Shown here in pieces: positions 2,569-33,236 of a DNA stretch of 36,716 bases. Origin of the DNA: an uncultured Reyranella sp. Its GTDB lineage: Bacteria; Pseudomonadota; Alphaproteobacteria; Reyranellales; Reyranellaceae. The notes beneath the pieces were generated by a model. That model was given only the letters and a program-made list of their open reading frames with translations. It searched no databases and was not told the origin of the DNA. Numbering within the stretch: the stretch's first letter is position 1; each line of letters starts with the position of its first letter. A program made the translations under genes and the position numbers. The stretch lies in contig CALFRN010000327.1 of assembly GCA_937919085.1 (NCBI GenBank), positions 1 through 36,716 on the forward strand, given 5' to 3'.

Positions 2569-2592
2569 CAAAACGGCGAGAGGGCGCGTAGC

Positions 2593-2621
2593 TTGACTTC
2601 GAGATCGTGCTTTAGCATACG
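2593..2621 (+). promoter_or_regulatory. candidate sigma-70-type promoter of the cold-shock gene
   Basis: TTGACT (2593-2598) is a good -35 match. CATACG (2616-2621), 17 bases further on, is only a partial -10. Initiation here would give a leader of about 155 nt before the csp start codon, as is usual for cold-shock genes. The -35 is convincing; the -10 is weak. Confidence 0.35.
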
Positions 2622-2990: not shown

Positions 2991-2994
2991 CCGA

Positions 2995-3453: not shown

Positions 3454-3463
3454 GGGAACGCGC

Positions 3464-4858: not shown

Positions 4859-4931
4859 GCCGATTGGCTGCCTGCATGGACGGTGATTCGTCTTTGCTGT
4901 AGGATACGATATTCCCTCTCGAGGACGGACC

Positions 4932-7103: not shown

Positions 7104-7119
7104 GTCGAGGCCGATCCCG

Positions 7120-7824
7120 GTGCGGGCCCCTGACTCTCGCATCGGTGCACCAGTCCGGGCGTTGCGGCCAAGCGAGTATACCGCCTCGCTCATTCAGTTT
7201 CTGCGGGCGGATGCCGACCGTGTCCGCAAGACCCACGTCCTCGAAATCGGCTCCGGCAGTGGAGTCGTGCTTGCTTCCCTCGGGGGGCTGGGTGCCGCCG
7301 CGCTTTGTGGCGTCGATATCGAGGGTGACGCTGTCGCGTCCAGCCGGCTGCTGCTCCAGGGCCTGGGATACGGTCGTATCGCGGAAATTTATCAGGGGGA
7401 TGTGTGGCAGCCCGTTGCCGGGCGCCGCTTTGATTTGATCGTCGCCAACCTCCCGCACTTCCCGATGGAACCGGTCGAAGTGGCCGGCCGTCTGCCGACC
7501 TGGAGCGCCGGCGGCACCGATGGGCGGCGCCTGCTCGACGTCTTTCTCGAGGGTTTGAAGGATCATCTTGCGCCGGGTGGCCGTTCGGTCATCACTCACA
7601 ATGCATTTGTCGACGTCGAACGCTCGCGCACGGTGGCAGGCGCGCGGGGCCTTTCTCTCAGCGTTGTCATGACAACCCTGATCCATGTTTCCGAGGAAAA
7701 ACTTGCCCGCATGACGCCGGCCGTACTTTGTGCCGAAGAGGGACGATCGATATACCGATATGGCCCCTATGCCTTTGCTGAAATGCACATCGTGGAAATT
7801 GTTCATTCGAACGCGGCCATCTGA
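7120..7824 (+). CDS. SAM-dependent methyltransferase, small-methylase (HemK/RlmG-like) type
   Basis: About 234 residues of a class I Rossmann methyltransferase. Motif I is VLEIGSGSGVV, the acidic end of beta-2 is GVDIEGD, and motif IV is FDLIVANLPHFP, a variant of the NPPY motif of HemK-like N- and O-methylases. The substrate is unknown. The open frame runs back to 6958 inside the cyclase gene. The best starts are GTG 7120 (GAGG at 7107-7110, nine-base gap) or TTG 7096 (AGAGG at 7086-7090). I chose the GTG because it avoids overlapping the cyclase and is the commoner start. The next gene begins two bases after its stop. Confidence 0.72.
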   Translation: MRAPDSRIGAPVRALRPSEYTASLIQFLRADADRVRKTHVLEIGSGSGVVLASLGGLGAAALCGVDIEGDAVASSRLLLQGLGYGRIAEIYQGDVWQPVAGRRFDLIVANLPHFPMEPVEVAGRLPTWSAGGTDGRRLLDVFLEGLKDHLAPGGRSVITHNAFVDVERSRTVAGARGLSLSVVMTTLIHVSEEKLARMTPAVLCAEEGRSIYRYGPYAFAEMHIVEIVHSNAAI

Positions 7825-7825
7825 G

Positions 7826-9508
7826 ATGCCGGTGTGGCGGTCCTCGTTGCTCGTTCTGTTCGCCTTTCTGGCAGGTGCAGTGGCGGTGCTTCCCGCCGTC
7901 GCGAGAGCAGACACGCCTGACGCCGCTCTCACCAAGCTGATCGAGGATGCGCGGGCGGAGGCTTCGGTGTCGGGTGCCTGCCTCAAACCTGATCTCGACC
8001 GACTGGTTCGGGTTTTTTGCGAGAACCGGCTTCGCCCCGGCGTGCGTGAGTACTATCCCCTGTTCGGGACGCGCGATGGCGAAACGCGCAGCGGCTACGA
8101 TGTCGACGTAGGCCGTGAGCTCGCCAAGCATCTGGGCGTCGAGCCGGTGTTTACCCGTGTCAATGCCGCCAGTCGCGTGCCGCTGCTTGCCGGGGACCGC
8201 ATCGACGTCATCCTGGCGACGATGGGGCACAACACCCAGCGCGACGGACAGGTTCGCTTCATCCGTCCGCACTATTACCAATCCGAGTCGACGATCGTGG
8301 GTCCACGCGCGCTCGCCGTGAAGGGCTGGCCGGACATCGCCGGCCGCACGATCTGCGTCAACATCGGCAACGGCTCCAACGCCCAGATCGTCTCGCACAA
8401 CGCCCGTCTGATGCTGTTCGACGAGGCGGGCGTTCTGCCGGACCGGCTTCGCGACGAGACCTGCTTCCTGGCCGCCCAGGACGACAGCTTTTTCGACTAC
8501 TACTTCACCGATCCCGGGTTTGCCGCGCGCTACGACAAGAAGTTCGGCTTCGCCCAGGTGCCCTGGGGCATGGCGGTGGCGCGCATTCCCGCTACCGACC
8601 GTCTGGCGCGGGCGTTCGAGCTGATGAGCCAGATATTCCACCGCGACGGCGTCTTCATCGACATTGCGCGCAAGAACCGTGTCGGCACCGGCTTTCTCGA
8701 ACGCCAGCAGGCTGTCTGGAGCCGCCCGGAGTGCAATGCAGATACCGGGGCCGCGAATCCGGCCTGCGTGCTGCCCGCGCTCAAGGCCGATCTCGAGCCG
8801 ACGCCATTTGCCGGCCGAGTGGTCGCGTTCGAGAAATGGTTCCGCGCGAACACCGGCTTCGATCTGTCGTTGCCGATGTTCAAGACCATGCCCGCCTGGT
8901 CTCTGTTCAAGGCAGGAGTCGTCAATTCACTCATTCTCGTCGCTGGTGCACTTGTTGCGACCGTGATCTTCGCGCTCGTGCTCGGCGCCGTGCAGAGCAC
9001 CCGCTGGCGCCTGCTTCGATGGCCCGGGCGGGCGGTCACCATCGTCCTGCAATCGTCACCGGTCGTGCTGACGCTTGTCATCGCCGCCGCGGTGGCTCAT
9101 GCCATTTTCCCCTACTCGTCGTCGGTAGCGCTCGGCGCGGCGATCGTGGCGCTCGGGTTGATGAACGGCAGCAATGCCGGCCAGGCGATCGCCGAGGCGA
9201 TGCATACCCTGCGAACCGAACGTGGCAGTGCGTCCATTCGGACGAGGACCCTGTTCGGCCGCGCCGTCGGGCGCTCGGCAACGCAGATCGTGTCGTTCCT
9301 CATCAATGCCGCCAAGGGTACGCCGATCGCAAGCTTCATCGGCGCACCGGAGCTGCTGAGCGCATTGACCGACATCACCGCCTTCGCAAGTGGCCGCGCC
9401 AGCACCTATTCACTGTTGCTGGTGTTCTACGTCGTCGTCGTGATGATCGTGGTCTGGCTTTGCGGCAAGCTGCGCATATTGCTGGAACGGAGGCATGAAG
9501 CACCATGA
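7826..9508 (+). CDS. polar amino-acid-type ABC transporter: solute-binding domain fused to permease
   Basis: A 560-residue fusion. An N-terminal hydrophobic signal ending in ARA (residues about 1-28) precedes a type II periplasmic binding domain (about 40-330) with the family block YDVDVGRELAKHLG, a GRTICVNIG segment and several Cys. A MetI-like permease domain follows (about 360-550) with multiple TM segments and an EAA-like loop around GRSATQIVSFLINAAKGTPIAS. The polar amino acid/opine importer family normally has these as separate proteins. Fused receptors are known from Gram-positive GlnPQ-type systems; in a Gram-negative cell the receptor would be tethered in the periplasm. The frame extends 32 codons upstream, but ATG 7826 gives a proper signal peptide. 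The next permease overlaps by ATGA. No ATPase gene is adjacent. Confidence 0.88.
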   Translation: MPVWRSSLLVLFAFLAGAVAVLPAVARADTPDAALTKLIEDARAEASVSGACLKPDLDRLVRVFCENRLRPGVREYYPLFGTRDGETRSGYDVDVGRELAKHLGVEPVFTRVNAASRVPLLAGDRIDVILATMGHNTQRDGQVRFIRPHYYQSESTIVGPRALAVKGWPDIAGRTICVNIGNGSNAQIVSHNARLMLFDEAGVLPDRLRDETCFLAAQDDSFFDYYFTDPGFAARYDKKFGFAQVPWGMAVARIPATDRLARAFELMSQIFHRDGVFIDIARKNRVGTGFLERQQAVWSRPECNADTGAANPACVLPALKADLEPTPFAGRVVAFEKWFRANTGFDLSLPMFKTMPAWSLFKAGVVNSLILVAGALVATVIFALVLGAVQSTRWRLLRWPGRAVTIVLQSSPVVLTLVIAAAVAHAIFPYSSSVALGAAIVALGLMNGSNAGQAIAEAMHTLRTERGSASIRTRTLFGRAVGRSATQIVSFLINAAKGTPIASFIGAPELLSALTDITAFASGRASTYSLLLVFYVVVVMIVVWLCGKLRILLERRHEAP

Positions 9509-10152
9509 TGCCGTTCCTGTCGAAGATTCCGGACGATTTCTTCCAGCAGTTGCTCGCGGGAATGGTTGTCAATTTCGAGATTGCCGCCATCGCGCTTGTG
9601 TTGGGTCTGGCGCTGGGCGGATTGCTTGCCTTGGCACGGCTGGGCGGCGGCGTGCCGGGCGCCGTGGCCACGCCGGTTATCGGCCTGATGCGGGCGGCCC
9701 CGACTTTCGTCGTCATGTTCTTCCTGCTGAACATCATCCCGCGCGATGCGACATTATTCGGTGTCGGCGTCGCGCCTTCCGGCATCATGACAGTGGCACT
9801 GTCACTGGTGCCCTACTCGGCATCCTACGTGGCCGACAACGGTGCCGAGGCCCTGCAGCAGTTCCGCCGCGGCTCGCCTCTGGGTGCGCTGCTGTTTCTG
9901 CCCAACATCACCCGTGCCTTCTTCGTGCTGGTGATGTCGTCCAGCGCCGGCGCTGCCATCGGCGTTACCGAAGGCATCGCGGTCATCCTGCGCGAGGCGG
10001 CGCTCCTGCACGGACTCGCCGACAAACTCGTCCTGTTCGCGATCGGCATCCTGCTGTTCGGCGTGACGCTCCAGGTCGGGTTCGCGATCATTCGCCTGCT
10101 TCAGCGCCATCTCGGTCGCATCGCGACGCGCGATGGCAAGGGCGGCACATGA
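9505..10152 (+). CDS. ABC transporter permease, polar amino acid (His/Glu/Gln/Arg/opine) type
   Basis: A 215-residue inner-membrane permease with about five TM segments. It opens with a typical amphipathic leader and MVVNFEIAAIALVLGLALGG, and has a cytoplasmic EAA-like loop around YSASYVADNGAEALQQFRRG, where the ATPase normally docks. Its ATG overlaps the stop of the fused receptor/permease gene (ATGA at 9505-9508), so the two permease domains probably form one heterodimeric channel. Its own stop overlaps the start of the following SDR gene in the same way. The partner ATP-binding protein must be encoded elsewhere, be shared, or be missing. Confidence 0.85.
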   Translation: MMPFLSKIPDDFFQQLLAGMVVNFEIAAIALVLGLALGGLLALARLGGGVPGAVATPVIGLMRAAPTFVVMFFLLNIIPRDATLFGVGVAPSGIMTVALSLVPYSASYVADNGAEALQQFRRGSPLGALLFLPNITRAFFVLVMSSSAGAAIGVTEGIAVILREAALLHGLADKLVLFAIGILLFGVTLQVGFAIIRLLQRHLGRIATRDGKGGT

Positions 10153-11009
10153 CCTACGACTCCGTCTTCCGTCCTGGCCTGTTCGCGGGGCAGGTCATCA
10201 TCGTCACGGGTGGCGGTTCCGGCCTCGGCCGCTGCACCGCGCACGAGCTGAAGTCGCTTGGCGCGCGGCTGGCGCTGATCGGGCGCACGCAGGAGAAGCT
10301 CGACCAGGTGCGACGGGAGCTGGGCGACGACGATACCTTCACCGTCGCTGCCGACCTGCGCGAGGAGGCCCAGGTAAAGGCGGCGATCGATGGTGTGCTC
10401 GCCTGGGGTGGGCGCATCGATGGTCTCGTGAACAATGCCGGCGGCCAGTTTCCGGCGCCCCTCAGGGACATCTCGCTCAACGGCTGGAATGCCGTGGTTG
10501 CCAACAACATGACCGCGACCTTCCTGGTGTCGAAAGAAGTCTATCTGCGCTGGATGGATCATAATGGCGGTGCCATCGTGAATGTCGGTGCCGACTTCGA
10601 ACTCGGCATGCCCGGCATGGGCCACAATGGCGCGGCGCGCGCCGGCCAGACCAACTTTACCTACACCGCGTCGGTCGAATGGGCGCACTCCGGCGTGCGC
10701 ATCAACTCGGTCATCCCGGGATTCATCGCGTCCTCCGGGCTCGATCGCTATCCCGAGCGCGCCCATGATGTGTTGCGCAACGTGAAGCACCGCATCCCGT
10801 TGAAGCGCCATGGCACCGAATCGGAGATCGCCGGCGCCATCGTCTATCTGCTGAGCGATGCCGCGGCCTATGTTACCGGCATCGCGCTTCGCGTCGATGG
10901 TGGATTGCACAACACCGCCAAGTCGAGCTTCTACGAAATGCCGGATCATGACCGGTCGAAGCCGTTCAACGGCTTCCCGCTCTACAAGACACCCAAGGTA
11001 CTGGGGTAG
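10149..11009 (+). CDS. SDR oxidoreductase resembling trans-2-enoyl-CoA reductase (PECR)
   Basis: A 286-residue short-chain dehydrogenase/reductase with the cofactor loop TGGGSGLG (20-27) and NNAG (95-98). The classical Ser-Tyr-Lys triad is absent: the YxxxK position reads N160-G-A-A-R164, and the strand before it is IVNVGADF without the usual Ser. The run HNGAARAG followed by an SVEWAHSGVRIN segment closely resembles my memory of peroxisomal trans-2-enoyl-CoA reductases and related dienoyl-CoA reductases, which use a different catalytic set. An NADPH-dependent enoyl-CoA or similar C=C reductase is the best guess. It overlaps the upstream permease gene by ATGA, so it is probably in the same transcript as the transporter. 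An unusual C-terminal tail of about 35 residues ends in PLYKTPKVLG. Confidence 0.82.
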   Translation: MTYDSVFRPGLFAGQVIIVTGGGSGLGRCTAHELKSLGARLALIGRTQEKLDQVRRELGDDDTFTVAADLREEAQVKAAIDGVLAWGGRIDGLVNNAGGQFPAPLRDISLNGWNAVVANNMTATFLVSKEVYLRWMDHNGGAIVNVGADFELGMPGMGHNGAARAGQTNFTYTASVEWAHSGVRINSVIPGFIASSGLDRYPERAHDVLRNVKHRIPLKRHGTESEIAGAIVYLLSDAAAYVTGIALRVDGGLHNTAKSSFYEMPDHDRSKPFNGFPLYKTPKVLG

Positions 11010-12205
11010 TGGCGGGTTCCTCGCAAGCGGCGAGCCGCACCGAGGTCGGTCTCGTATACGTGGCCGCTGTCATGCAGGGCCTGGCGCTGGTGACGTTTCC
11101 GGCCGCCAGTTCGATCTTCACCAGTCCGGACGGGTTCGGCTTCGACAGCACGCGCTACGGCGTGATGTTCGTGCCCCAGGTGGTGTTCGCAATTCTCGCC
11201 GCCGGCCTGGCGCCGAAGCTGGCGCGGCGATGGGGCTTGCGCCGGGTGCTGCTGATGGGTTTTGCCGGCGATTTCGCCGCCATGGCCCTGCTGGCGCTGA
11301 GCCGCCTGCTCATCGACGTCCCCGACACGGCCTTCGTCGTGCTGCTGATTGCCACTGCATCGTTGGGATTGGGCTTTGGCGCCACCGTCATGGCACTCAA
11401 CACCTATGCCGAGGCGTTTTTTCCGGAACGTGCCGATCGCGCGGTCCTGGCGCTGAACGCGCTGCTGGGCGTCGGCACCGCCCTGGCGCCGGCGCTGGTC
11501 GCGGTCGTCGTTGCCCTGGGGGCGTGGTGGCTGCTGCCTGTTGCCGCGGCAGCCTTCGTGGTTGTGCTCTCAGGCGTCGCCGTGACGCAGCCGCTCGAGG
11601 TGGCGGAAGCCGCCGGCGATGGCGATGCACCCCGATCGATCGGTCTGTCCGAGCTGCCGCGGCGGTTCTGGCTCTACGCCGCATCGGTCTTCCTCTACGG
11701 TTTCGTCGAGACCATGAACGGCAATTGGGCGATGCTCTATCTTACGACCGAGCGCGGCGTGTCGGTCCAGGGCGCCTCGTTCGCGCTCACCGCCTTCTGG
11801 GGAATGGTGACGGTGGGGCGCGTGCTCATTGCGGTGGTCGCTCGTTTTGTACCGCCACGCTGGATCTATCTCGGCCTGCCGCTTGCGCTTGTTGTCGTCT
11901 TTCAGATCGCGGCGCGTGTGCCGGGCGAGACGGGTGGCATCCTCATCTTCGGTCTGGCCGGGCTCGCCTGCTCGGGTTTCCTGCCGCTCAGCATCAGTTT
12001 CGGCGGCGGCGAGTTCCCGCGTCTGGCCGCGGTCATGGCCGGCGGGCTCATCGCCTTCTATCAATTGGGTTATGGCTTCGCCGCTTTCGGCATCGGGCCG
12101 CTGCAGGGCCTGCTTGGGTGGTCATTCGCGACCATATTCGCCGCCGGCAGCCTGATCGCGTTGCCGCTCGCCGTCGTCGCGGCGCTGGTCATCCGGCGGC
12201 CTTGA
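11009..12205 (+). CDS. MFS transporter
   Basis: A 398-residue major facilitator with about 12 hydrophobic segments and a central cytoplasmic linker (about 195-215). The loop between TM2 and TM3 (KLARRWGLRRVLL) is a degenerate motif A. The substrate is unknown; the second half contains NGNWAMLYLTTERGVS, which fits no specific family I recognise. The GTG start shares one base with the TAG stop of the SDR gene (11007-11009), making it the last gene of the cyclase-transporter run. Its final 17 bases overlap the end of a convergent cupin gene. Confidence 0.85.
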   Translation: MAGSSQAASRTEVGLVYVAAVMQGLALVTFPAASSIFTSPDGFGFDSTRYGVMFVPQVVFAILAAGLAPKLARRWGLRRVLLMGFAGDFAAMALLALSRLLIDVPDTAFVVLLIATASLGLGFGATVMALNTYAEAFFPERADRAVLALNALLGVGTALAPALVAVVVALGAWWLLPVAAAAFVVVLSGVAVTQPLEVAEAAGDGDAPRSIGLSELPRRFWLYAASVFLYGFVETMNGNWAMLYLTTERGVSVQGASFALTAFWGMVTVGRVLIAVVARFVPPRWIYLGLPLALVVVFQIAARVPGETGGILIFGLAGLACSGFLPLSISFGGGEFPRLAAVMAGGLIAFYQLGYGFAAFGIGPLQGLLGWSFATIFAAGSLIALPLAVVAALVIRRP

Positions 12206-22992: not shown

Positions 22993-25686
22993 CTAGTCCC
23001 GCACCGAGAGGCGCGCCATCGTCAAACGCACCACGAATTCCGCTCCATGCGGTTTGGCAGGAACGAGCGACAGGCTGCCATTGAATCGTTCGACGATCTG
23101 GCGGCTGATGGCCAGGCCGAGACCTGCTCCAGCCGGGCGCGGCATCGGTCCGCGCGCGAACTTGACGAAAATGCGTTCGCGTTCAGCCTCTGGAATTCCC
23201 GGGCCATTGTCGACGACCCGAGCTTCATAGACATCCTTGCGGACAGTACTCGACACCGTCACCGTCGGTACGGTGCTCAGGTTGTACTTTATGGCATTCG
23301 AAATCAGGTTGATGAAGACCTGCGCGAACCTGTCGCGATCGCCATAGACCCACGCCTTGCGCGCCCGGCCCGATCGTTTGAGCGTGACGCCAGCGGCGCG
23401 GGCCAGGGCCTCGCAGCTTTCCATCGCCTGATCGAGCGCCGTTTCGGGGTCGAACGGCGTTTCCTTCCAGGTGGGATCGCCACTCTCCATTTGATTGAGA
23501 TCGAGAATTCCATCGAGCAGCCGCGTGAGTCGGAGGCTCTCATTCTGGATAATGCCCAGAAACCGCAGTTTCTCCGCCTCGTCGATATCGCGATTGTTGA
23601 GCAGGATGTCGCTGAACGAGCGGATCGAGGTCATTGGAGTACGGACTTCGTGGCTCACCTGGCTCAGAAATTCGTCCTTTTGACCGTCGATCTCACGGAG
23701 GCGCTGGTTGGCCATGGCCAATTGGGCGGCGGTCGCCTCGATCTGGCGCGATTTGCGTTCCAGTTCGGCCGAGTAGGCACGGATCTGCTCGGCCTCACCG
23801 GCGAGCCGCTTCAATTCGTCGACGCTGATCGTCTCGCTGGTGACCACGCTGGATACCAGCGACCGCGCCGACGCCGCGCCGATATTGGCGGCCAGCCGTT
23901 GTTCGACCAGGGAAATGAGCTCGTCACTGGCTGTGACGGTGTGCTCTCCGCTCTTGTCGTTGAAAAGCAGCATCGCTTCGGCTGGGCCCAGGATGCGATC
24001 GGCGATCCGGTGCAGGTCTGAAACCTTTGCGGTGCGCCGGATGACACGCAACTCGCTTTCCGTCTGGCGGCGAAAGATGTCGATGAACAGGGTCGATTGA
24101 AGCCGCGCAAGTGGTGTCGGTTCCGAAAGCAGGGAAACGCCGACGAACAGCGCGAGGTTGATGCTGATACTCCAGAACGTGGCATGCACGAGCGGGTCGT
24201 AATCGGCGAGGCCGAACAGAGCATATGGCTTTAGCCACGCCCAGCCGAAGGCGCCGTTTTCGATCACGCTTGCCGGCATCAGGAAAAATCCCTCGAAGCT
24301 CGGCAGAAACAGCGCATACGCCCAGACCATGAAGCCTCCGACGAGGCCGGCAATGGCGCCACCATGCGTGGCGGATCTCCAGTAAAGCCCGCCGACCAGA
24401 CTGGGAAGAAACTGGGCGACGCCGCAAAAGGAGATCAGCCCGATGGCTGCAAGGGCATCGGAGGTTCCGCTCAGCCGGAAATAGAGGAAGCCGAGAAATA
24501 CGATGAAAACGATGCTCGTTCGGCGCGCACCGAGGATGAAGCGGCGGACGTTCGGCGCGCTCGCCGAAGGCAGGATCGAGAAGCGCAGCGCCAACGGCAT
24601 GACGATATGATTCGAGATCATTGTTGACAGCGCGATTGACGATACGATGACCATGGACGTCGCCGAAGAGAAGCCGCCGAGGAAGGCGAGCATCGCGATG
24701 ATGTTCTGCTCGGCGGCCAGCGGCAGCGTCAGCACATAGAGATCGGGGTCGGATCCCGTGGGCAGCCTGTTGAGACCGGCGACCGCAATGGGCACGACGA
24801 ACAGGCAGATCAGGAACAGATAGAGCGGGAACAGCCAGGATGCGGTGCGGAGCTGGCTTTCGCTGGAATTCTCGACAACGGTGACCTGGAATTGGCGCGG
24901 CAGGCAGATCACCGCCGCGCCGGCCAGGAAACACAGCGTGACCCAGCGTGCGCCGAAGGTCTCTTCGGGCGTCAGCAGGCTGACCGGGGCGTTGGCGAAG
25001 ACCTCGGCCGGCGTTCCCGCGAGTTCGACGACGACCCACAGGCCGACCGCCAGCAAGGCCATCAGCTTGACGATCGCTTCCACGGCAATCGCTGCGATGA
25101 CACCGTGATGACGCTCGTTCACGTCGATATTGCGCACGCCGAAGATGATCGAGAATGCGCAGAGACCGGCCGCCGCCCAGAAGGCCACGACATAGTCGGG
25201 TGCGAGGTTCGAACCGGCGGCGACGACGGCCCCTGCCGGGAAGGTGATGACCTGGAAGCTGGCGGTCAGCGCCTTCAGCTGCAGGGCGATGTAGGGCGCG
25301 GTGGCGATGAGGGCCATCAGCGTGACGATCGCACCCAACGTGGGGTTCTTGCCGAAGCGGGCGGAAATCAGGTCGGCAACGGAGGTGATGTTGTGAACGC
25401 GCCCGACGGTGACGAGCTTGCGCAGGAACACCCACCATCCGGCGAAGACGATGGTCGGTCCCAGATAGATGGTGACGAATTCCATGCCGTTGGCGGCCGC
25501 CGAACCTACCGCGCCGAAGAAGGTCCACGAAGTGCAGTAGATCGAAATCGACAGCGTGTAGACGAGTGGCGACGATAGCCACCCGCCCGGGTCCTTGCGC
25601 GCGCGGCGGTCGCCGGCGAAGGCAACGCCGAACAGGATGGCGACATAGATGAGACAGACCGCGACGACGAGATTGGCGTGCAGCAT
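22993..25686 (-). CDS. Na+/solute symporter-type sensor histidine kinase (CbrA/CrbS-like)
   Basis: An 897-residue protein joining an SSS/SLC5 transporter module to a histidine kinase. Residues 1 to about 510 contain roughly 13 TM segments with PutP-like blocks (SIYCTSWTFFGAVGSAA, LPRQFQVTVVEN). A STAC-like helical region follows (about 535-600), then a coiled coil (about 625-668). HisKA has phospho-accepting His679 in FLSQVSHEVRTPM, and HATPase_c has N-box NLISNAIKYN, G1 VDNGPGIP and G2 GAGLGLAIS. There is no fused receiver domain and no clear PAS domain. Relatives CbrA and CrbS respectively sense carbon/nitrogen status with histidine transport and regulate acetate use. It overlaps by ATGA with a small membrane protein gene and is co-transcribed with a receiver-only regulator, its likely partner. 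Confidence 0.92.
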   Translation of the reverse strand: MLHANLVVAVCLIYVAILFGVAFAGDRRARKDPGGWLSSPLVYTLSISIYCTSWTFFGAVGSAAANGMEFVTIYLGPTIVFAGWWVFLRKLVTVGRVHNITSVADLISARFGKNPTLGAIVTLMALIATAPYIALQLKALTASFQVITFPAGAVVAAGSNLAPDYVVAFWAAAGLCAFSIIFGVRNIDVNERHHGVIAAIAVEAIVKLMALLAVGLWVVVELAGTPAEVFANAPVSLLTPEETFGARWVTLCFLAGAAVICLPRQFQVTVVENSSESQLRTASWLFPLYLFLICLFVVPIAVAGLNRLPTGSDPDLYVLTLPLAAEQNIIAMLAFLGGFSSATSMVIVSSIALSTMISNHIVMPLALRFSILPSASAPNVRRFILGARRTSIVFIVFLGFLYFRLSGTSDALAAIGLISFCGVAQFLPSLVGGLYWRSATHGGAIAGLVGGFMVWAYALFLPSFEGFFLMPASVIENGAFGWAWLKPYALFGLADYDPLVHATFWSISINLALFVGVSLLSEPTPLARLQSTLFIDIFRRQTESELRVIRRTAKVSDLHRIADRILGPAEAMLLFNDKSGEHTVTASDELISLVEQRLAANIGAASARSLVSSVVTSETISVDELKRLAGEAEQIRAYSAELERKSRQIEATAAQLAMANQRLREIDGQKDEFLSQVSHEVRTPMTSIRSFSDILLNNRDIDEAEKLRFLGIIQNESLRLTRLLDGILDLNQMESGDPTWKETPFDPETALDQAMESCEALARAAGVTLKRSGRARKAWVYGDRDRFAQVFINLISNAIKYNLSTVPTVTVSSTVRKDVYEARVVDNGPGIPEAERERIFVKFARGPMPRPAGAGLGLAISRQIVERFNGSLSLVPAKPHGAEFVVRLTMARLSVRD

Positions 25687-25961
25687 CAGTGCTGCTCCGG
25701 CTCGGTCACTTCTGCCTCAGGCTTCGAAGGGATGCTCTCGTCGGCCGGCTCCCGACCGTGGCAGCGCGACAATAGCCATGCAGCCAGGATGACGGCGGCC
25801 CAGACGCCGAACACGTAGATGACGATGAGCGGGACTCCGGCGACGAGCACCGGAGCGGCAAAGACCAGGATGAAAGGCGGCAGGAGGAGCGCCGCGGCGG
25901 CGACGGGAAGAAGCGTCGCGGCGTCACGCGTGGCCTGGGCGTTGGCCCACCAGCGGTTCAT
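25686..25961 (-). CDS. two-TM small membrane protein, likely accessory subunit of the symporter-kinase
   Basis: A 91-residue protein with two hydrophobic segments (about 16-38 and 43-65) separated by VLVAGVPLIVIY, and a charged Glu/Pro-rich C-terminal tail (REPADESIPSKPEAEVTEPEQH) probably in the cytoplasm. The size and the G-V-P-L hairpin resemble the small partner proteins often encoded just before SSS symporters (DUF3311/DUF4212 type), but I cannot assign the family for certain. ATGA overlaps join it to both neighbours: its start overlaps the regulator stop and its stop overlaps the kinase start. Such tight coupling suggests a stoichiometric partner of the symporter domain. Confidence 0.78.
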   Translation of the reverse strand: MNRWWANAQATRDAATLLPVAAAALLLPPFILVFAAPVLVAGVPLIVIYVFGVWAAVILAAWLLSRCHGREPADESIPSKPEAEVTEPEQH

Positions 25962-26341
25962 CGCCCGCCGACACCTCCGGCGAGACGGGAGACATGTGCC
26001 ACCACCTCGGCGTTGGAGAATGGCTTGGTGATGAAGGCGCTGGCGCCGATCGCCTCCGCCATCCGGCGGTCGCCGGCCTGGCCCTTGGCGGTCAGCACGA
26101 TGACGGGCAGGGCCGCCAGCTTCTGGTCCGACCGGATTGCCCTCAGCACGTCAAAACCGTTCATGCCGGGCAGCATGATGTCCAGCACCAGGGCCGAAAA
26201 GGGCAGGCGTCGCACCCGGTCGAGCGCCTCCGTGCCGTCGGTCGCCGTGTCGACATCGAAGCCGGCACGATTCAGGATGAAACTCAGCGACTCGACGATG
26301 TTCTGCTCGTCTTCGGCGATGAGTATGCGCGCTTTGCCCAT
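25958..26341 (-). CDS. receiver-only response regulator
   Basis: A 127-residue protein that is just a REC domain: acidic pocket Glu10-Asp11, phospho-acceptor Asp54 (LVLDIMLPG), Thr84 (VLTAKG) and Lys106 (ITKPF) are all present. No DNA-binding or other output domain follows; the gene stops about seven residues after the last helix. It should be phosphorylated by the symporter-kinase encoded downstream and act by protein contact or as a phosphate relay. The frame extends 19 codons upstream, but Met at 26341 gives the standard REC N-terminus (MGKARILIAEDEQ). It lies 82 bases after the acyl-CoA-type regulator gene, in the same direction. Confidence 0.9.
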   Translation of the reverse strand: MGKARILIAEDEQNIVESLSFILNRAGFDVDTATDGTEALDRVRRLPFSALVLDIMLPGMNGFDVLRAIRSDQKLAALPVIVLTAKGQAGDRRMAEAIGASAFITKPFSNAEVVAHVSRLAGGVGGR

Positions 26342-26374
26342 GTGATCCGCTTCCCGCCAGAGCTTTTTCTGCAG

Positions 26375-26380
26375 CCTATA
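26375..26380 (-). promoter_or_regulatory. candidate -10 (TATAGG) before the regulator/symporter-kinase operon
   Basis: On the minus strand TATAGG followed by CTGC lies 33 bases before the ATG at 26341. The same ten-base string occurs before the SDR gene at 34199. The -35 region is weak. It suggests the kinase operon can be transcribed separately from the upstream regulator gene. Confidence 0.3.
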
Positions 26381-26410
26381 GGGTTTGGGTCGGGGCACAC
26401 ACAGGCTTTT

Positions 26411-26426
26411 TGACCGGCGTCGGTCA
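26411..26426. promoter_or_regulatory. palindrome TGACCG-N4-CGGTCA spanning the upstream gene's stop codon
   Basis: A perfect six-base inverted repeat with a four-base centre includes the TGA stop of the acyl-CoA regulator gene and lies about 70 bases before the start of the receiver gene. No T-run follows on the minus strand (it is followed by AAAAAG), so intrinsic termination is unlikely. An operator for the downstream operon is the better reading. Confidence 0.35.
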
Positions 26427-27896
26427 GGTGATCAGCGGTGCTTCCTGACGATGTCCGCAAGCTTCCCTTGGGCACAGGCGGCAGATCGTGCCGATCGGCG
26501 CCATCGCTTTGCCGAGGTCGATGCCGTCGCCGTAGACGACGCGGCCGGCGTCTTCTGCGGCACAGGCAAGCATCACCGACAGAAGGTGACGCGGCGCAGC
26601 CGCCGACGACGGTCGCTTCTCCACGGCGCGCGCGAAGAACAGGAACTGCTCGCCCGACGGCAATTCGCCGAAGCCGCGTGCGCTCACGCCCGGGTTCTGG
26701 AAAGCCGCGTGGATCGCCCACAACGGGCAGGCGTTGCCGTAGCGCGGCAGCGGAAGGCGCGGCAGCGGCAGCCGCTTGGTGACGTACCCTGAGGCATCGG
26801 TTCGCATGAAGGCGAAGCGCACGCCCTCGGCGCCCGGCCGGTGCAGCGTCGCCAGCCGATGCGCCGCCTGCTCGTACGAGACGCCGAACAGCCGGGACAG
26901 TGCGTCGAGGTCGTAGCGCCAGCGTTCGGCGGCTTCCAGGAAGTGTTCGTAGGGCATCAGCACGGCGGCGGCGGCATAGGCTGCCAGCGCCGCCGTGGCC
27001 AGAGTCCGGGACTCCTCCGAGACCAGCGCGGCATGGCTCTGGACGAGCGCCTGGATGGGTTCGGCGACGACAGGCTGCAACGCTTGCTTGAGCAGCCGAA
27101 AGCGCCGCGTCTCGAACCGCTCGGCGACCGTCGCCTCGGGCGGGAAGCGGCTGGATGCGTCCGGGAGTTTCTCCTTCGCGGCATCGGGCGTTCGGTCGGC
27201 GGCAAGAAAGTCCGCCGCCACCGCCTCGAGTTCGGGGAAGTAGTTGTCGGTGGCGAGGATGAAGGCATCGACGTGCTCGGCCGGCGTCGCCGAGCGCACG
27301 CGCATGTGTGCGCTGTTGAAGAATTCGAGCAAGGCATGGGCGGTACCCGAAAGCTTCTGGGCGTCGGTTGCCACGATGGACCGGAAGCGCCGGCGGTCGG
27401 CGGGCGTCAGTGCATCGTCGGCTTCGAGGATCTCGGCTGCGGCCCGGATCGAGGTGACGTTGGTCAACATGCGATGCACGCTGTCGCCGAGGAAGGGATC
27501 GCGATTGAGGCGGTCGGCGAGTGCGAGCACTGCCTGGTTCTGGTCGAGCCACGCCTGGTACAGCCGCAGTACGAGCGCCGCCCAGGCGGGATTGCGGCCG
27601 ACCAGGTCCTCCGCCGGGCCGGGATGGCCACCGCCGCTGGCGAGCTCCGGATCGGCCGCGATCTCCTCGAGGCTGGCAACCACGCGTCGTTCGGCCACGC
27701 CGTCGAGATCGGAGCGCTCGACGCCCAGCTCCGCGGCGATGCGGTCGACGAGCCCTCCGGCGATTGCCCGTTTGTCGCGCTCGATGAGGTTGAGATAGGA
27801 CGCCGAAATCCCGACCCGGCGGGCAAGTTCGCCTTGCGCCAGTTTGCGATCCCGGCGCAGCGCCCTGATTTTCAGACCGGTCAAGTTTCTGGCCAT
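26424..27896 (-). CDS. XRE-type transcriptional regulator, short-chain fatty acyl-CoA regulator (ScfR/RamB/PrpR-like) family
   Basis: A 490-residue regulator. An N-terminal XRE helix-turn-helix (about 7-62, with QGELARRVGISASYLNLIERDKR) is followed by a long helical middle region in place of a recognisable HExxH metallopeptidase motif. The C-terminal acyl-CoA-regulator domain contains four Cys at 390 (ACPLWAIH), 472, 475 and 480 (CRLCPREACGH). In mycobacterial PrpR the equivalent domain holds an Fe-S cluster and binds acyl-CoA; the same is inferred here. Relatives control propionate, acetate and glyoxylate-shunt genes. It is divergent from a HAAT ABC transporter across an AT-rich region and lies directly upstream of the receiver and symporter-kinase genes, so it is a candidate regulator of both. 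Confidence 0.87.
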   Translation of the reverse strand: MARNLTGLKIRALRRDRKLAQGELARRVGISASYLNLIERDKRAIAGGLVDRIAAELGVERSDLDGVAERRVVASLEEIAADPELASGGGHPGPAEDLVGRNPAWAALVLRLYQAWLDQNQAVLALADRLNRDPFLGDSVHRMLTNVTSIRAAAEILEADDALTPADRRRFRSIVATDAQKLSGTAHALLEFFNSAHMRVRSATPAEHVDAFILATDNYFPELEAVAADFLAADRTPDAAKEKLPDASSRFPPEATVAERFETRRFRLLKQALQPVVAEPIQALVQSHAALVSEESRTLATAALAAYAAAAVLMPYEHFLEAAERWRYDLDALSRLFGVSYEQAAHRLATLHRPGAEGVRFAFMRTDASGYVTKRLPLPRLPLPRYGNACPLWAIHAAFQNPGVSARGFGELPSGEQFLFFARAVEKRPSSAAAPRHLLSVMLACAAEDAGRVVYGDGIDLGKAMAPIGTICRLCPREACGHRQEAPLIT

Positions 27897-27916
27897 CTGT
27901 CCTCGTCGACATATCC

Positions 27917-28022
27917 GTGTATCAAGAATTTACAACAACTACACATAATCATCTAATAAATTTACTAAATTATCTATCTAGACCAAGGTCTTATGGAAAT
28001 ATGAACAGAATAGTGAACAATG
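27917..28022. promoter_or_regulatory. AT-rich divergent regulatory region
   Basis: This stretch is strikingly AT-rich in otherwise GC-rich DNA. It holds AATTTAC at 27927-27933 and again at 27959-27965 (32 bases apart, about three helical turns). The second copy is part of the perfect palindrome AATTTA-C-TAAATT (27959-27971). A further inverted repeat AGACC-AA-GGTCT lies at 27980-27991. It separates the divergent regulator and ABC receptor genes and probably contains both promoters plus operators. I could not pick specific -10/-35 pairs. Confidence 0.55.
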
Positions 28023-28082
28023 ACGTCGGCAGCGAACGCCTTCAATCGGCGGCGTGCCAAACAGCATCCATGGGAGGATCAT

Positions 28083-29429
28083 ATGAAATTCGACAGCTTC
28101 AACCGTCGCCGCTTCCTCGGGGCCAGTGCCGTGGCCGGCGTGGGCCTTGCCGCCCCGATGCACTTCGTCCGCGGCGCCTACGCCGCCGACATGTCCTGCA
28201 ACATGCCCACGGGCAAGACCGTCACTTTCGGCTGGAACATCCCGCTGACCGGCGCCTATGCCGATGAAGGCAACGACGAACTCAAGGCGTTCAAGCTCGC
28301 GGTCAAGCACCTCAATGGCGAGGGCGACGGCGGCATGCTCAAGACGATGAAGCCGACGGCGCTCAAGGGCAACGGCGTGCTCGGCAAGAAGGTCGCCTTC
28401 GTGCAGAGCGATTCGCAGACCAAGTCGGACGCCTCGCGCGATGGCGCCAAGCGCATGATCGAGCGCGACGGCGCCATCATGATCTCCGGCGGCTCCTCGT
28501 CGGGCGTCGCTGTCGCCGTGCAGGGCCTTTGCCAGGAACTCGGCGTCATCTTCATGGCCGGCCTGACCCATTCCAACGACACCACCGGCAAGGACAAGAA
28601 GCGTTACGGCTTCCGTCACTTCTTCAACGCCTACCAGTCGGGTCTGGCGCTCGCCCCCGTGCTCGCGCAGGAATACGGCAAGGACCGCACGGCCTACCAC
28701 CTCACCGCCGACTACACCTGGGGCTGGACCCAGGAGGAGTCGATCAAGAACGCCACCGAGAAGCTCGGCTGGAAGACGGCCAAGGCCGTCCGCACGCCGC
28801 TCGGTGCCGGCGACTTCTCGCAGTACATCACGCCGGTGCTCAATTCCGGCGCAGACGTGCTGATTCTCAACCACTACGGCAAGGACATGGTCAACTCGCT
28901 GACCCAGGCGGTGCAGTTCGGCCTGCGCGACAAGATGGTCAACGGCAAGAAGGTCGAGATCGTCGTGCCGCTGTTCTCCGAACTGATGGCGCAGGGCGCC
29001 GGCGATGCCGTCAAGGGCATCCTCGGCACCAGCAACTGGGACTGGAAGCTGCCCGACGAGGCGACCAAGAACTTCACCAAGTCGTTCGGCACCGAATACG
29101 GCACGCCGCCGTCGCAGGCGGCGCAGACCTGCTACGTCCAGGCGCTGCTCTATGCCGACGCCTGCGAACGCGCCGGCACCTTCTACGCGCCCGCCGTCAT
29201 CAAGGCCTTGGAAGGCTTCGAGTTCGATGGCATGGGCAACGGCAAGACATTGTACCGTGCCGCCGACCACCAGTGCTTCAAGTCCTGCCTTGTCGTGCGC
29301 GGCAAGGAGAAGCCGAAGGACAAGTTCGACCTCATGGAAATCGTGAAGGTCGTGCCGCGCGAGGATCTCATGTACGACCCCAAGATCTTCGGCGGGGATC
29401 TGGGACCTTCGACCGCCAAGCAGTGCTGA
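28083..29429 (+). CDS. HAAT-family ABC transporter substrate-binding protein (LivK-like)
   Basis: A 448-residue type I periplasmic binding protein of the branched-chain amino acid/amide class. The N-terminus contains NRRRFLGASAVAG, a twin-Arg motif, and a hydrophobic stretch ending AYA-AD, so Tat export of a folded protein is predicted. Core blocks are VTFGWNIPLTGAYADEG, MISGGSSSGVAVAV, the HFFNAYQSGLALAPVL segment and GADVLILNHYGKDM. It contains six or more Cys, more than usual for the family, which may form disulfides. The ligand could be an amino acid, amide or other small acid. GGGAGGA (28072-28078) decides the ATG; the frame starts 21 codons earlier. Codon use is strongly C-biased, consistent with high expression. 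A 10-bp hairpin follows. Confidence 0.92.
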   Translation: MKFDSFNRRRFLGASAVAGVGLAAPMHFVRGAYAADMSCNMPTGKTVTFGWNIPLTGAYADEGNDELKAFKLAVKHLNGEGDGGMLKTMKPTALKGNGVLGKKVAFVQSDSQTKSDASRDGAKRMIERDGAIMISGGSSSGVAVAVQGLCQELGVIFMAGLTHSNDTTGKDKKRYGFRHFFNAYQSGLALAPVLAQEYGKDRTAYHLTADYTWGWTQEESIKNATEKLGWKTAKAVRTPLGAGDFSQYITPVLNSGADVLILNHYGKDMVNSLTQAVQFGLRDKMVNGKKVEIVVPLFSELMAQGAGDAVKGILGTSNWDWKLPDEATKNFTKSFGTEYGTPPSQAAQTCYVQALLYADACERAGTFYAPAVIKALEGFEFDGMGNGKTLYRAADHQCFKSCLVVRGKEKPKDKFDLMEIVKVVPREDLMYDPKIFGGDLGPSTAKQC

Positions 29430-29444
29430 GCCGATGATCTGGTG

Positions 29445-29470
29445 GCCGACCGCCGGTTCGGGCGGTCGGC
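29445..29470 (+). terminator. perfect 10-bp hairpin between binding-protein and permease genes
   Basis: GCCGACCGCC (29445-29454) pairs perfectly with GGCGGTCGGC (29461-29470) around a six-base loop. It lies 16 bases after the receptor stop and 42 before the LivH-type start. Without a U-run it may be a partial terminator or a 3' barrier to RNases. Either would raise receptor mRNA over permease mRNA, a known theme in ABC importer operons. Confidence 0.55.
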
Positions 29471-29512
29471 TTCCGCTCACCGGCATGAACGACCAGTTGT
29501 AGGCCGACGAAG

Positions 29513-30538
29513 ATGGATGCGATTCTCCTGCAGGTGCTGAACGGCCTGGACAAGGGCGGTGCCTATGCGTTGATTGCGCTCGGCCTCACCCTGGTTTTCG
29601 GCACGCTCGGCGTGGTGAACTTCGCGCATGGTGCGCTGTTCATGCTGGGCGCCTTTTGCGCCGTTACCTTCGACAAGCTGCTCAAGCTCGAAAGCGTCGT
29701 CGTCGATCCCGAAAAGACCACGGCCTGGGGAAGCAAGCTCGAGATCCGCACGCCCTATGTCGAGGCCTGGCTGGGTGATTTCGGCAGGTTCCTGCACGAC
29801 TATTCGGTTCCGGCGTCGATCCTGCTCGCCATTCCCGTCATGCTGGTCATCGGCATCGTCATGGAGCGCGGACTGATCCGCCACTTCTACAAGCGTCCCC
29901 ATGCCGACCAGATCCTGGTGACCTTCGGCCTGGCGATCGTCATCCAGGAAGTCATAAAGCACTTCTTCGGCGCCAACCCGATCCCCCAGCCGGCACCGCC
30001 GGCCTTTGCCGGCACCGCCTATGTCGGTGCGCTCTTCGGCATGGGCCAGACCCTGGCCTACCCGTGGTGGCGCATCATCTACATGTTCTTTTCGCTCGCG
30101 GTGATCGGCGCCGTGTTCGCCTTCCTGCAGTTCACCACCTACGGCATGGTGGTGCGCGCCGGCATGCACGACCGTCAGACCGTCGGCTTCCTCGGCATCG
30201 ACATCCAGCGCCGCTTCACCGTCGTCTTCGGCCTCGCTGCCGTGGTCGCCGGTGTGGCCGGTGTCATGTACACGCCGATCCTGCCGCCCGATTACCACAT
30301 GGGCATGGACTTTCTGGTGCTGTCCTTCGTGGTGGTGGTGGTCGGCGGCATGGGCTCGCTGGGGGGCGCGGTGGCGGCCGGCTTCCTGCTCGGCATCCTG
30401 CAGTCCTTCGCCTCCATGAACGAGGTCAAATCAATCGTGCCCGGCATCGACCACATCATCATCTACCTGGTCGCGGTCGTCGTTCTTCTGACGCTTCCGC
30501 GCGGCCTGTTCGGCCGCAAGGGCGTCATGGAGGAATGA
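29513..30538 (+). CDS. livH: branched-chain-type ABC transporter permease, LivH family
   Basis: A 341-residue inner-membrane protein with about eight TM segments. It opens with the family signature [43 protein letters not shown] and later shows [16 protein letters not shown], the cytoplasmic coupling loop, and [21 protein letters not shown]. It is slightly longer than typical LivH (about 300) because of an extra charged segment after TM2 (about 55-95). It pairs with the LivM-type protein to form the channel. The ribosome site is weak (GACGAAG), so translation may be lower than for the receptor. The next gene starts four bases after its stop. Confidence 0.92.
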
Positions 30539-30542
30539 GACC

Positions 30543-31694
30543 ATGTGGAACAACCCTGCCCGCAATGACTGGTTTCTGCTCGCCGGCTTCAGCCTCGTCG
30601 TTCTTTGCCTCCCGCTTATCCTCGAGCCGATCGGTGCCGCCTATCCTGCGCTGATGCAGAAGTTCTGCATCTTCGGAATCTTCGCCATCGGCTTCAACAT
30701 CCTGTTCGGCCTGACCGGTTATCTCTCCTTCGGCCACGCCGCCTTCCTCGGCGTCGGCTCCTACGCCGCGGTGTGGTCGTTCAAGCTCCTCACCATGAAC
30801 GCCATCCCGGCCATCGTCTTCGCCATCGTCTGCGCCGCCGCCTTCGCGCTGGTCATCGGCTACGTCAGCCTGAAGCGCTCGGGTATCTATTTCTCGATCC
30901 TGACGCTGGCTTTCGCCCAGATGAGCTACAACCTTGCCTATTCGGTGCTGACGCCGCTCACCAACGGCGAAACCGGCCTTCAGCTCTCGCTCCAGGATCC
31001 GCGCATCATCGACGCGCTGTTCGTCGCGCCGCAGGCCGGGCTGCCGCGGGTCAATCTCTTCGGCACCTACACCAGCGGCGGCGGCTACGCCGGCTTCTAT
31101 CTCTGCGCGGCCGCGCTGATCGTCTGCTTCTTCATCGCCCTGCGCATCTTCCGCTCGCCCTTCGGCCTGATGCTGCGCGCGATCAAGTCCAACCAGAACC
31201 GCATGCGCTACACCGGCTTCAACACCCGGCCCTACCTGCTCGCCGCCTTCGTCATCTCCGGCATGTATGCCGGGCTGGCCGGCGGCCTCATGGCCGTCAC
31301 CGACCCGCTGGTCGGTGCCGAACGCATGCAGTGGACGGCGTCGGGCGAGGTCGTGTTGATGACCATCCTGGGCGGCGCCGGCACGCTGGTCGGCCCGGTG
31401 CTCGGTGCGGCGGTCATCAAGTATTTCGAGAACATCTTCTCCTCGTTCAGCGTCACGACCCTGCAGGGCGTGTTCGGCTTCCTGCCGGATGCCATCGAGC
31501 GGCCGCTGGTCTCCTTCCTGTCGCTGTTCGTCGGCGACGGCTGGAACCTCACCCTTGGCGTCGTCTTCATGCTGATCGTGATCTTCCTGCCCGGCGGCCT
31601 CATGGAGGGGCTGCGCCGCATCTGGAGCCTGTTCGATCGCCGCCCCGGCGGCGGCGACAAGGTTCCGGCCGCCCAGACCCAGCCGGCGGAGTAG
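30543..31694 (+). CDS. livM: branched-chain-type ABC transporter permease, LivM family
   Basis: A 383-residue permease with about 10 TM segments and the LivM blocks [70 protein letters not shown] (coupling loop) and [20 protein letters not shown]. The C-terminal tail after the last TM ([18 protein letters not shown]) is hydrophilic and Pro/Gln-rich. GGAGGA (30529-30534) overlaps the end of livH and gives a strong ribosome site, so the two permeases are translated together. The ATPase gene follows four bases after the stop. Confidence 0.92.
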
Positions 31695-31698
31695 CGGC

Positions 31699-32466
31699 AT
31701 GACCGCGCGCAATGTCGTCCTCCACGTCGCCGACGTGCACAAGAGTTTCGGCGGTCTGCACGCCCTGGCCGATGTCGACCTGCAGGTCGAGGAGGGGACA
31801 ACCCATGCCATCATCGGGCCCAACGGTGCTGGCAAGTCGACGTTGCTGAACGTCTGCATCGGCCGGCTGGCGCCCGACATCGGCGCCGTCGTTTTCGACG
31901 GCCAGGTGATCACCGGCAAGCAGCCGCACGAGATCAACCAGATGGGCGTCGTGCGCGTATTCCAGACGCCGGAGATCTTCTCCGACCTCGATCTGCTGCA
32001 GAACGTCATGGTCCCGGCATTCGCCAAGCGCGACGGCGCCTTCCGGCTGAACGCCATGAGGTCGGTCGCGACGCGTACCGACATTCGCGACGAGGCCCTG
32101 CATAGCCTGGAGGAAGTCGGGCTTCTTGGCCAGAAGGGCGCCATTGCCGGCAGCCTGTCGCGCGGCGACAAGCGCCGCCTCGAGCTTGCCATGGGCCTGG
32201 TCCAGAAGCCGCGGCTGTTGCTGCTCGACGAGCCGACCGCCGGCATGTCGCGTCACGACACCAATTCGACCATCGACCTTCTCAAGAAATTCAAGGGCCG
32301 CGGCATGACCAAGGTCATCATCGAGCACGACATGCACGTCGTGTTTTCCCTGGCCGACCGCGTCACGGTGCTGGCGCAGGGCCGCATCATCGCCGAGGGT
32401 TCACCCGACGAGGTCAGGGGCAACGCCAGGGTCCAGGAGGCCTACTTGGGGGGAGCACATCCATGA
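31699..32466 (+). CDS. livG: branched-chain-type ABC transporter ATPase, LivG family
   Basis: A 255-residue ATP-binding subunit. Walker A is GPNGAGKST (40-48). The ABC signature is LSRGDKRRLELA (from 153), the LivG-like variant of LSGGQ. Walker B is LLLLDEP, with Asp177 and catalytic Glu178, and the switch His lies in IIEHDMHVV. Length is normal for the family. With the following LivF-type protein it would form the nucleotide-binding heterodimer powering import through LivH/LivM. The start has CGGAG seven bases upstream; the last four bases overlap the next gene (ATGA-type). Confidence 0.93.
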   Translation: MTARNVVLHVADVHKSFGGLHALADVDLQVEEGTTHAIIGPNGAGKSTLLNVCIGRLAPDIGAVVFDGQVITGKQPHEINQMGVVRVFQTPEIFSDLDLLQNVMVPAFAKRDGAFRLNAMRSVATRTDIRDEALHSLEEVGLLGQKGAIAGSLSRGDKRRLELAMGLVQKPRLLLLDEPTAGMSRHDTNSTIDLLKKFKGRGMTKVIIEHDMHVVFSLADRVTVLAQGRIIAEGSPDEVRGNARVQEAYLGGAHP

Positions 32467-33236
32467 ATGCGATGGCCAAGCCGATGCATGGCTCCGGGCC
32501 CGGTCCGGCATCCAGCCCTTCCCCGGCGGCGGGCGCCTTTTTCAGCGTCAGCGACGTCCACGCCTATTATGGCGAGAGCTACATCGTCCAGGGCGTCAGT
32601 TTCGAGGTCGCCGAAGGCGACGTGGTGGCCCTGCTGGGCCGCAACGGCGCCGGCAAGACCTCGACCCTGCGCACGCTGGCGCGCGCTCTTGATCCGGAAC
32701 TCAAGCGGGGCGAGATCTGGCTGAATGGCGAAGCGCTGCACAAGCTCAAGGATTTCCAGGCCGCACGCCTCGGTGTCCAGCTTGTCCAGGAGGATCGCCG
32801 CATCATTCCCGGCCTCACCGTCGAGGAAAACCTCCTGCTCGCCCGGATCGCCGAGCCCCGGGGCTGGCCGCTTGAACAGATCTACCAGCACTTCCCGCGG
32901 CTGGCCGAACGCCGGCGGCAGGAGGGCGTTACCCTGTCGGGCGGCGAGCAGCAGATGCTTGCGGTCGCCCGGGCGCTGGCGCGCGATATCAAGCTGCTGC
33001 TGCTCGACGAGCCCTACGAGGGACTGGCGCCGGTGATCGTGCGCGAGATCGAGAGCATCGTGCGCGAGATCAAGAAGCTCGGCATCACCACCATCATCGT
33101 CGAGCAGAACGCGGTGGCCGCGCTCGAACTCGCCAACCGCGCCCTGATCCTCGACATGGGCCATATCGTCTTCGACGGGACGGCCCAGGCCGTGCTCGAC
33201 GACGCCGACCTGCGCAACGAGTACCTGGCGATCTGA
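32463..33236 (+). CDS. livF: branched-chain-type ABC transporter ATPase, LivF family
   Basis: A 257-residue ATP-binding subunit with Walker A GRNGAGKT (59-66), signature LSGGEQ (158-163), Walker B LLLLDEP (Asp182, Glu183) and the LivF mark YEGLAPVIVREIE. The H-loop position reads IIVEQNAVAAL: Gln-Asn replace the His, as is usual in LivF proteins. A Pro/Ser/Gly-rich extension of about 25 residues precedes the ABC domain (MNAMAKPMHGSGPGPASSPS), so a later start is conceivable. However, the ATG overlaps the livG stop and a G-rich ribosome site precedes it. It is the last gene of the importer operon. Confidence 0.92.
   Translation: MNAMAKPMHGSGPGPASSPSPAAGAFFSVSDVHAYYGESYIVQGVSFEVAEGDVVALLGRNGAGKTSTLRTLARALDPELKRGEIWLNGEALHKLKDFQAARLGVQLVQEDRRIIPGLTVEENLLLARIAEPRGWPLEQIYQHFPRLAERRRQEGVTLSGGEQQMLAVARALARDIKLLLLDEPYEGLAPVIVREIESIVREIKKLGITTIIVEQNAVAALELANRALILDMGHIVFDGTAQAVLDDADLRNEYLAI

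Follow-up and report, generated by a model that had tools for sequence, protein, structure and literature searches.

Receiver domains of two-component systems dock on DHp domains, which are also dimerization domains. Two groups of described proteins come closest to the locus presented here. The first comprises the SLC5/STAC-type histidine kinases, among which CbrXA is a transport-linked kinase with a small partner protein (PMC13022988), whereas CrbS-type kinases have a receiver of their own (PMC9100948). The second is the ScfR/IsaR family of regulators. In PrpR, the ligands of the [4Fe4S] cluster are a cysteine of the GAF domain and a C-X2-C-X4-C motif (PMC6765138), and ScfR sites are described as a pair of similar boxes separated by 18 bp (PMC10370305). 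Pden_1785 of Paracoccus denitrificans, a gene of the ScfR network, is said in a single line of the latter paper to cluster with a two-component system. Here, we analyzed a stretch of 36,716 nucleotides (the window; contig CALFRN010000327.1 of assembly GCA_937919085.1) from an uncultured Reyranella sp. (Alphaproteobacteria), in which a kinase of the first group, a two-transmembrane (two-TM) protein, a lone receiver (REC), and an ScfR-type regulator are encoded in one operon. According to profile comparisons, the regulator contains a hairpin that is homologous to the DHp domain of the partner kinase. The best overall explanation, to which we assign a probability of about 0.62, is that the locus forms a two-input switch that governs small-acid uptake via this DHp-bearing regulator.

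The regulator (490 amino acids; 26424..27896, minus strand) matched HTH_3 of Pfam at its N-terminus (helix-turn-helix, HTH, residues 10 to 63; E 3e-10) and ScfRs (PF09856, residues 350 to 488; E 5e-39) at its C-terminus, with a Peptidase_M78/IrrE-like stretch (IrrE-like/acyl-CoA core) in between. A HisKA-like DHp hairpin of approximately 66 residues is inserted between the DNA-binding and the acyl-CoA parts (residues ~131 to 197; 27306..27506, minus strand, with the His141 codon at 27474-27476). The similarity of regulator and kinase first surfaced as tblastn cross-hits. When a profile built from 13 regulators was compared with one from 19 kinases, hhalign aligned residues 116 to 193 of the regulator to the kinase DHp domain at 98.3% (E 2.5e-14), placing His141 opposite His679 of the kinase; 36 regulator segments gave 99.1% (E 6.5e-19). 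The controls scored 0.1% to 0.5%; they comprised a reversed kinase profile, five column-shuffled ones, one lacking the DHp domain, and a comparison of the kinase with 37 canonical ScfRs. Chance helical similarity of the hairpin is ruled out by these profile controls, for which fold scores alone would have been insufficient. At E ≤ 1, Pfam HisKA matched seven of the 13 regulators, with 3.5e-8 as the best value, and the regulator profile matched chains of HK853 (E 6e-4). Within the genome, the DHp profile scored 56.8 bits with the partner kinase and matched only two of the 18 other HisKA proteins found (16.6 and 12.1 bits). The predicted model of the regulator (pLDDT 78) shows the hairpin helices at residues 134-159 and 165-200, and a model of the segment (pLDDT 81) yielded DivL and HK853-RR468 as the top Foldseek rows (E 0.18 and above). 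The presence of a partner-kinase-like DHp domain, as identified by these alignments, distinguishes the regulator from an ordinary ScfR and is a new result. In the literature searched, which was mostly non-subscription and did not cover the ScfR class paper, no mention of a DHp domain in ScfR or another XRE-type regulator was found.

An alignment of 122 regulator-like proteins comprised 85 with the segment (81 of them distinct) and 37 canonical proteins with six residues or fewer at this position; the ratio is no census because the queries were DHp-type. In a tree of 161 short rows with few columns, the DHp segments of the regulators formed one group (support 100/99). The donor branch is not readable from this tree because the kinase side also takes in five other kinases.

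The residues kept in the hairpin differ from those of the kinases. In HisKA kinases, the acidic residue following the histidine (+1) is needed for kinase activity only, and threonine or asparagine at +4 for phosphatase activity only (PMC3510030). While all 71 kinases aligned have Glu at +1, Arg at +3, and Pro at +5, these residues were found in 7, 11, and none of the 85 regulators, respectively; the regulator of the window has Arg142 at +1. The phosphoacceptor position is His in 77 of the 85 regulators and F, Q, or Y in the other eight, and the +4 position is T, S, or N in 82, including Ser in 24. At five receiver-specificity positions, those used to rewire HK853-RR468 (according to the title of 4JAU), the regulator agrees with its partner kinase in 64% of cases (65 pairs), compared to 32% elsewhere. 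The alignments thus suggest that receiver-facing residues tend to be kept in the regulator DHp, while residues serving the kinase reaction only are lost.

The gene encoding REC (25958..26341, minus strand) is annotated from a GTG as an open reading frame extending to 26398, but translation more likely starts at the ATG at 26341, which numbers the acceptor as Asp54. The protein shows the pattern of a single-domain receiver: Glu10, Asp11, and Asp54 were present in all 64 receivers compared, together with Thr84 in 61 and Ser in three. A REC gene lies on the same strand within 1.2 kb downstream of the regulator in 64 of the 85 DHp-type loci, followed by the two-TM and kinase genes in 61, and the regulator has the histidine in 64/64 of these loci. 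Among 19 loci without an adjacent REC, 11 have His and eight F, Q, or Y; two further loci end at contig edges. The link between histidine and REC adjacency gave a Fisher p-value of 1.9e-6 with kinship ignored. A kinase of this type was present in 14 of 16 genomes searched, mostly those of loci without REC linkage, and was not found in Rhodocyclus (Gln for His) and a Lautropia metagenome-assembled genome (MAG; His kept). The regulator of Rhodocyclus tenuis (L128), with Gln in place of His and the kinase not found in the genome, resembles a natural loss of input. In L054, L099, and L107/L149, REC is absent from the operon or located 3-4 kb away on the same strand, possibly owing to recent rearrangements. 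A DNA-binding response regulator encoded elsewhere may still be missing from this picture. The only LuxR-type regulator found beside such a kinase is that of L053; no counterpart was found in the stretches retrieved for the 85 DHp-type loci, and relatives of it at E ≤ 1e-40 occurred in three of 21 genomes, L053's own included. A scan of viral contigs gave one weak match with REC.

The four genes are located where the original prediction placed them, on the minus strand, with the two-TM protein encoded at 25686..25961 and the kinase at 22993..25686. Of the ATGA overlaps proposed for the last three genes, the one linking REC to the two-TM gene was confirmed; the latter has a single base in common with the kinase gene (TGATG), and there is no overlap between the regulator and REC genes. 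Both catalytic residues named in advance were recovered, His679 as the phosphoaccepting histidine of the kinase and Asp54 as the acceptor of REC if translation starts at 26341. The kinase contains HisKA (residues 669-736, 23479-23682) and HATPase (782-890) and terminates after the latter, so that a C-terminal receiver is absent. Both domains were detected in 19 of 19 relatives; Pfam SSF was matched by eight of the 19, with the window kinase not among them. The classification as a symporter-type (SSS) kinase is nevertheless backed at the level of the family, the profile of the 19 kinases matching the CbrXA SLC5-STAC structure 10ED (profile positions 5-619, E 6e-109). The two-TM protein occupies the position that CbrX has before CbrA. 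Searched at E ≤ 10, the two-TM profile gave three matches, none of them CbrX; the likeness consists of position and two helices only.

What the original prediction had missed, besides the DHp domain of the regulator, was the divergent ATP-binding cassette (ABC) operon. Five genes on the plus strand encode a substrate-binding protein (28020..29429; the ATG at 28083, preceded by GGAGG and followed by a Tat-like leader, appears as the likelier start from sequence), two permeases (29513..30538 and 30543..31694), and two ATPases (31699..32466 and 32463..33236). The operon of regulator, REC, two-TM, and kinase genes and the divergent importer form one larger unit of nine genes. Between them, two TTTAC boxes 32 bp apart (27928..27965, plus strand) constitute an operator-like site, which is the sole match of this pattern in the genome. 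Of 69 regulator-importer intergenic regions, 60 contained TTTACA (shuffled mean 5.7) and 24 a pair of TTTAC boxes spaced 31-32 bp (shuffled mean 0.025). Exact words were counted against dinucleotide shuffles; a position-weight model was dropped, since it drifted to an AT-rich pattern. For the ScfR sites, the reported fragment sizes imply boxes of 14 bp and therefore a distance of 32 bp from start to start (PMC10370305). The conserved two-box sites fit a control of the importer by ScfR and are regarded as a candidate operator. The ligand of the importer is not deducible from the closest solved structures. An acetyl-CoA synthetase gene (acs) was detected near the importer in seven distinct loci (L059 and L114 representing one place) and a weaker relative in an eighth, which points to acetate or another small acid as the substrate.

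The acyl-CoA core of the regulator resembles PrpR structures (Foldseek E 6.6e-17 with the predicted model). Cys390, Cys472, Cys475, and Cys480 are invariant in 13 of 13 regulators, are kept in 82-83 of 85, and coincide with the ligand pattern of PrpR. Homology and conserved cysteines taken together, the regulator would bind acyl-CoA beside a [4Fe4S] cluster. The NCBIfam cut-off for RamB is not reached (257 of 700 bits). In one family (L062, L242, L243, and L244), a shortened regulator consists of the HTH and the DHp domain with its His, and the acyl-CoA core is matched weakly, as if the receiver input had outlived the acyl-CoA input.

The conservation of the gene order, put forward as a check of the original prediction, was confirmed and extends to the importer. 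Relatives of the two-TM protein occurred in 25 of 190 genomes of the class. In 10 of 20 neighborhoods fetched, all nine genes were found in the order of the window (kinase, two-TM, REC, and regulator, divergent from substrate-binding protein, two permeases, and two ATPases), and the same applied to 12 of 27 further loci, chosen mostly by regulator profile. The remaining fetched loci lacked one or more pieces, were rearranged, or were ended by a contig edge. Among the best 80 loci of named genomes, 25 contained the nine genes, 44 a DHp-type regulator, and 36 an ScfR without the DHp segment. Named carriers of the nine genes include Falsochrobactrum, Devosia, Thalassospira, Maritalea, Pelagibacterium, and Minwuia. 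In Ferrovibrio and in betaproteobacterial MAGs (Rubrivivax, Burkholderiales), the operon was found without the importer within the stretch examined, and in Neorhizobium sp. SOG26, regulator, REC, kinase, and importer are located on a plasmid. Across 385 genomes of the class, the DHp-type regulator was present in at least 45 (at least 42 among the matches listed plus three shortened regulators), the full-length kinase in 53, and both in 44; in the 45th genome with a DHp-type regulator (G064), the first 71 residues of the kinase run off the contig end.

In none of 24 genomes of the same genus was a DHp-type regulator found; therefore, the module (22993-33236) was probably acquired or patchily lost. 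The importer genes are 81-89% identical to those of Falsochrobactrum. A contaminating contig was considered and rejected, as another gene of the contig has relatives in the same genus (up to 86% identity over part of the length); the contig seems to belong to the genome.

The proposed mechanism starts with the SLC5/STAC kinase and its two-TM partner, which would sense an outside or transport-linked signal, whereupon the kinase would phosphorylate the lone REC at Asp54. The target of REC would be the regulator, on whose kinase-related hairpin it is expected to dock; we regard this docking as quite probable. The regulator, in turn, would sense acyl-CoA beside its cluster and act at the two boxes located between the importer and the regulator operon. 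Docking, with or without phosphoryl transfer to His141, would alter the action of the regulator on the operon and importer genes. The transfer itself is proposed tentatively and is rather doubtful. Marginally more doubtful is the complete scheme, a His-Asp-His relay ending on a DNA-binding acyl-CoA/Fe-S sensor, in which one- and two-component control would be fused by a captured kinase DHp domain. The original prediction had already let the lone receiver signal through the acyl-CoA regulator. The DHp domain related to that of the partner kinase, the histidine in every REC-adjacent locus, and the tendency to keep receiver-facing residues all argue strongly, though indirectly, for this, with contact and phosphotransfer as predictions.

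Several observations weigh against the two-input switch. The HisKA match of the window regulator (E 0.0065, 16.9 bits) is below the Pfam gathering cut-off of 26.9. The hairpin model had no Foldseek match at E ≤ 0.001, and its best VIA Z score was 10.0 (root-mean-square deviation 2.1, 67 aligned); unrelated helical hairpins reach 8-9.5, so that the fold alone is weak evidence, such scores being common for helical bundles. The agreement at the specificity positions was reached by 226 of 10000 random position sets. The eight losses of His, all in loci without adjacent REC, correspond to three changes on a tree of 81 regulators (after near-copy removal), which makes the association between His and an adjacent REC modest evidence. 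His is also retained in 11 loci without adjacent REC (10 without the near-copy); in one of them (L123), no such kinase was found in the genome. In four loci of one family with Phe, the kinase is encoded approximately 8 kb from the regulator. Finally, nine of the 53 genomes with the kinase had no DHp-type regulator in the matches listed. REC and the two-TM gene are present in each of these nine, and REC must therefore have another role there.

The docking step is shared by an alternative in which the DHp domain of the regulator is a docking sensor only: binding of phosphorylated REC would shift the conformation, and His141 would not be phosphorylated. The precedent is DivL, a pseudokinase reading phosphorylated DivK through its DHp domain, with Tyr or His at the acceptor position (PMC4211667). 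The presence of F, Q, or Y in eight of the 85 regulators is in line with this, as is the Foldseek search with the hairpin model, which listed DivL first, albeit at E 0.18. Docking alone, however, would not demand His in 64/64 REC-linked loci, and we consider this explanation unlikely, though worth serious attention. Two others are clearly improbable, to the same degree. The regulator DHp could be a phosphatase of phosphorylated REC, perhaps gated by acyl-CoA, so that the metabolite status ends the kinase signal. The retained His, the residues at +4, and the mostly lost acid at +1 fit the residue roles of a phosphatase (PMC3510030), but the Ser of 24 regulators at +4 is outside the residues shown to be functional, and a pure brake leaves REC with no output of its own. 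Alternatively, the hairpin might merely help the regulator to dimerize, its signaling role being lost and REC acting on something else. The nine kinase genomes that keep REC and the regulators that lost His or REC adjacency would be explained, in contrast to the conserved acceptor His and receiver-facing residues and the nearly complete co-occurrence with the kinase in the 385 genomes. Very improbable is a direct route, in which the regulator DHp is a direct partner or substrate of the kinase and REC is a phosphate sink like a hybrid-kinase receiver: the partner DHp is the nearest relative in the genome, DHp domains dimerize, and a kinase-borne receiver is known from the CrbS type (PMC9100948), but Glu at +1 is mostly and Pro at +5 fully lost in the regulators, and L103 keeps REC beside the regulator with the kinase on another contig.

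A second type of module was found in seven of the nine genomes that have the kinase but showed no DHp-type regulator and, additionally, in L056 and L112. A large protein is encoded there in the interval from REC to the two-TM gene or close to it (L063:9313-11634, L060:9233-11311, L112:1208-3319; also L056, L245-L248, and L250). The three large proteins run against Pfam all gave DEDDh exonuclease and PAS signals, and the others align with these three. In an alignment of nine such proteins, a degenerate DHp-CA-like region is apparent that matches the kinase at 98.4% (E 4.8e-15) and has another residue in place of the His. This degenerate kinase module fused to an exonuclease, probably a second captured effector, fits a receiver family that reaches its effectors via kinase-derived modules, and passing the docking domains of kinases on to further effectors may be a wiring rule of this family. 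Elsewhere in the window (1057-12205), a separate catabolic cluster contains galactarate/altronate dehydratase-like, amidase, SBP_bac_3, SDR, and MFS genes.

Lone receivers are often without a known target. In the present case, the sequence points to one, a kinase docking module within the neighboring transcription factor. If the two-input switch is correct, domain capture is a way in which a regulator that senses a metabolite can be placed under two-component control, and it suggests a simple rule by which the effectors of other orphan receivers can be sought. The regulator would also be the point at which internal and external measurements of a small acid might converge.

Compared with described systems, the regulator shares with the ScfR/IsaR family (PrpR, RamB, PccR) the XRE-type HTH, the IrrE-like/acyl-CoA core, and the cysteines of the ligand pattern, along with a candidate two-box operator; it differs by the hairpin, where the canonical members have almost nothing. 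Pden_1785 is similar in gene arrangement, an ScfR-network gene next to a two-component system, according to the one line in PMC10370305. With CbrA, CrbS, and RpuS, the kinase shares the fusion of a histidine kinase to a symporter-like part and STAC, and with CbrXA the small two-helix protein before the kinase. Unlike CrbS and RpuS, it is devoid of a C-terminal receiver, and in place of CbrB or the LuxR-type CrbR and RpuR, the locus has a lone REC, plus a divergent importer. It thus contains neither the hybrid kinase nor the LuxR-type partner of the CrbS/CrbR acetate system. As in DivK-DivL, a lone receiver would be read by a kinase-derived DHp domain not serving as a kinase; DivL, however, is a membrane-linked pseudokinase with a CA domain and not a DNA-binding protein. 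In the Spo0F-Spo0B and CckA-ChpT relays, a receiver is combined with a DHp-type phosphotransfer protein without a working kinase, as would be the case in the window. There, the phosphate passes to a further receiver, whereas the DHp domain of the window is itself part of a DNA-binding protein.

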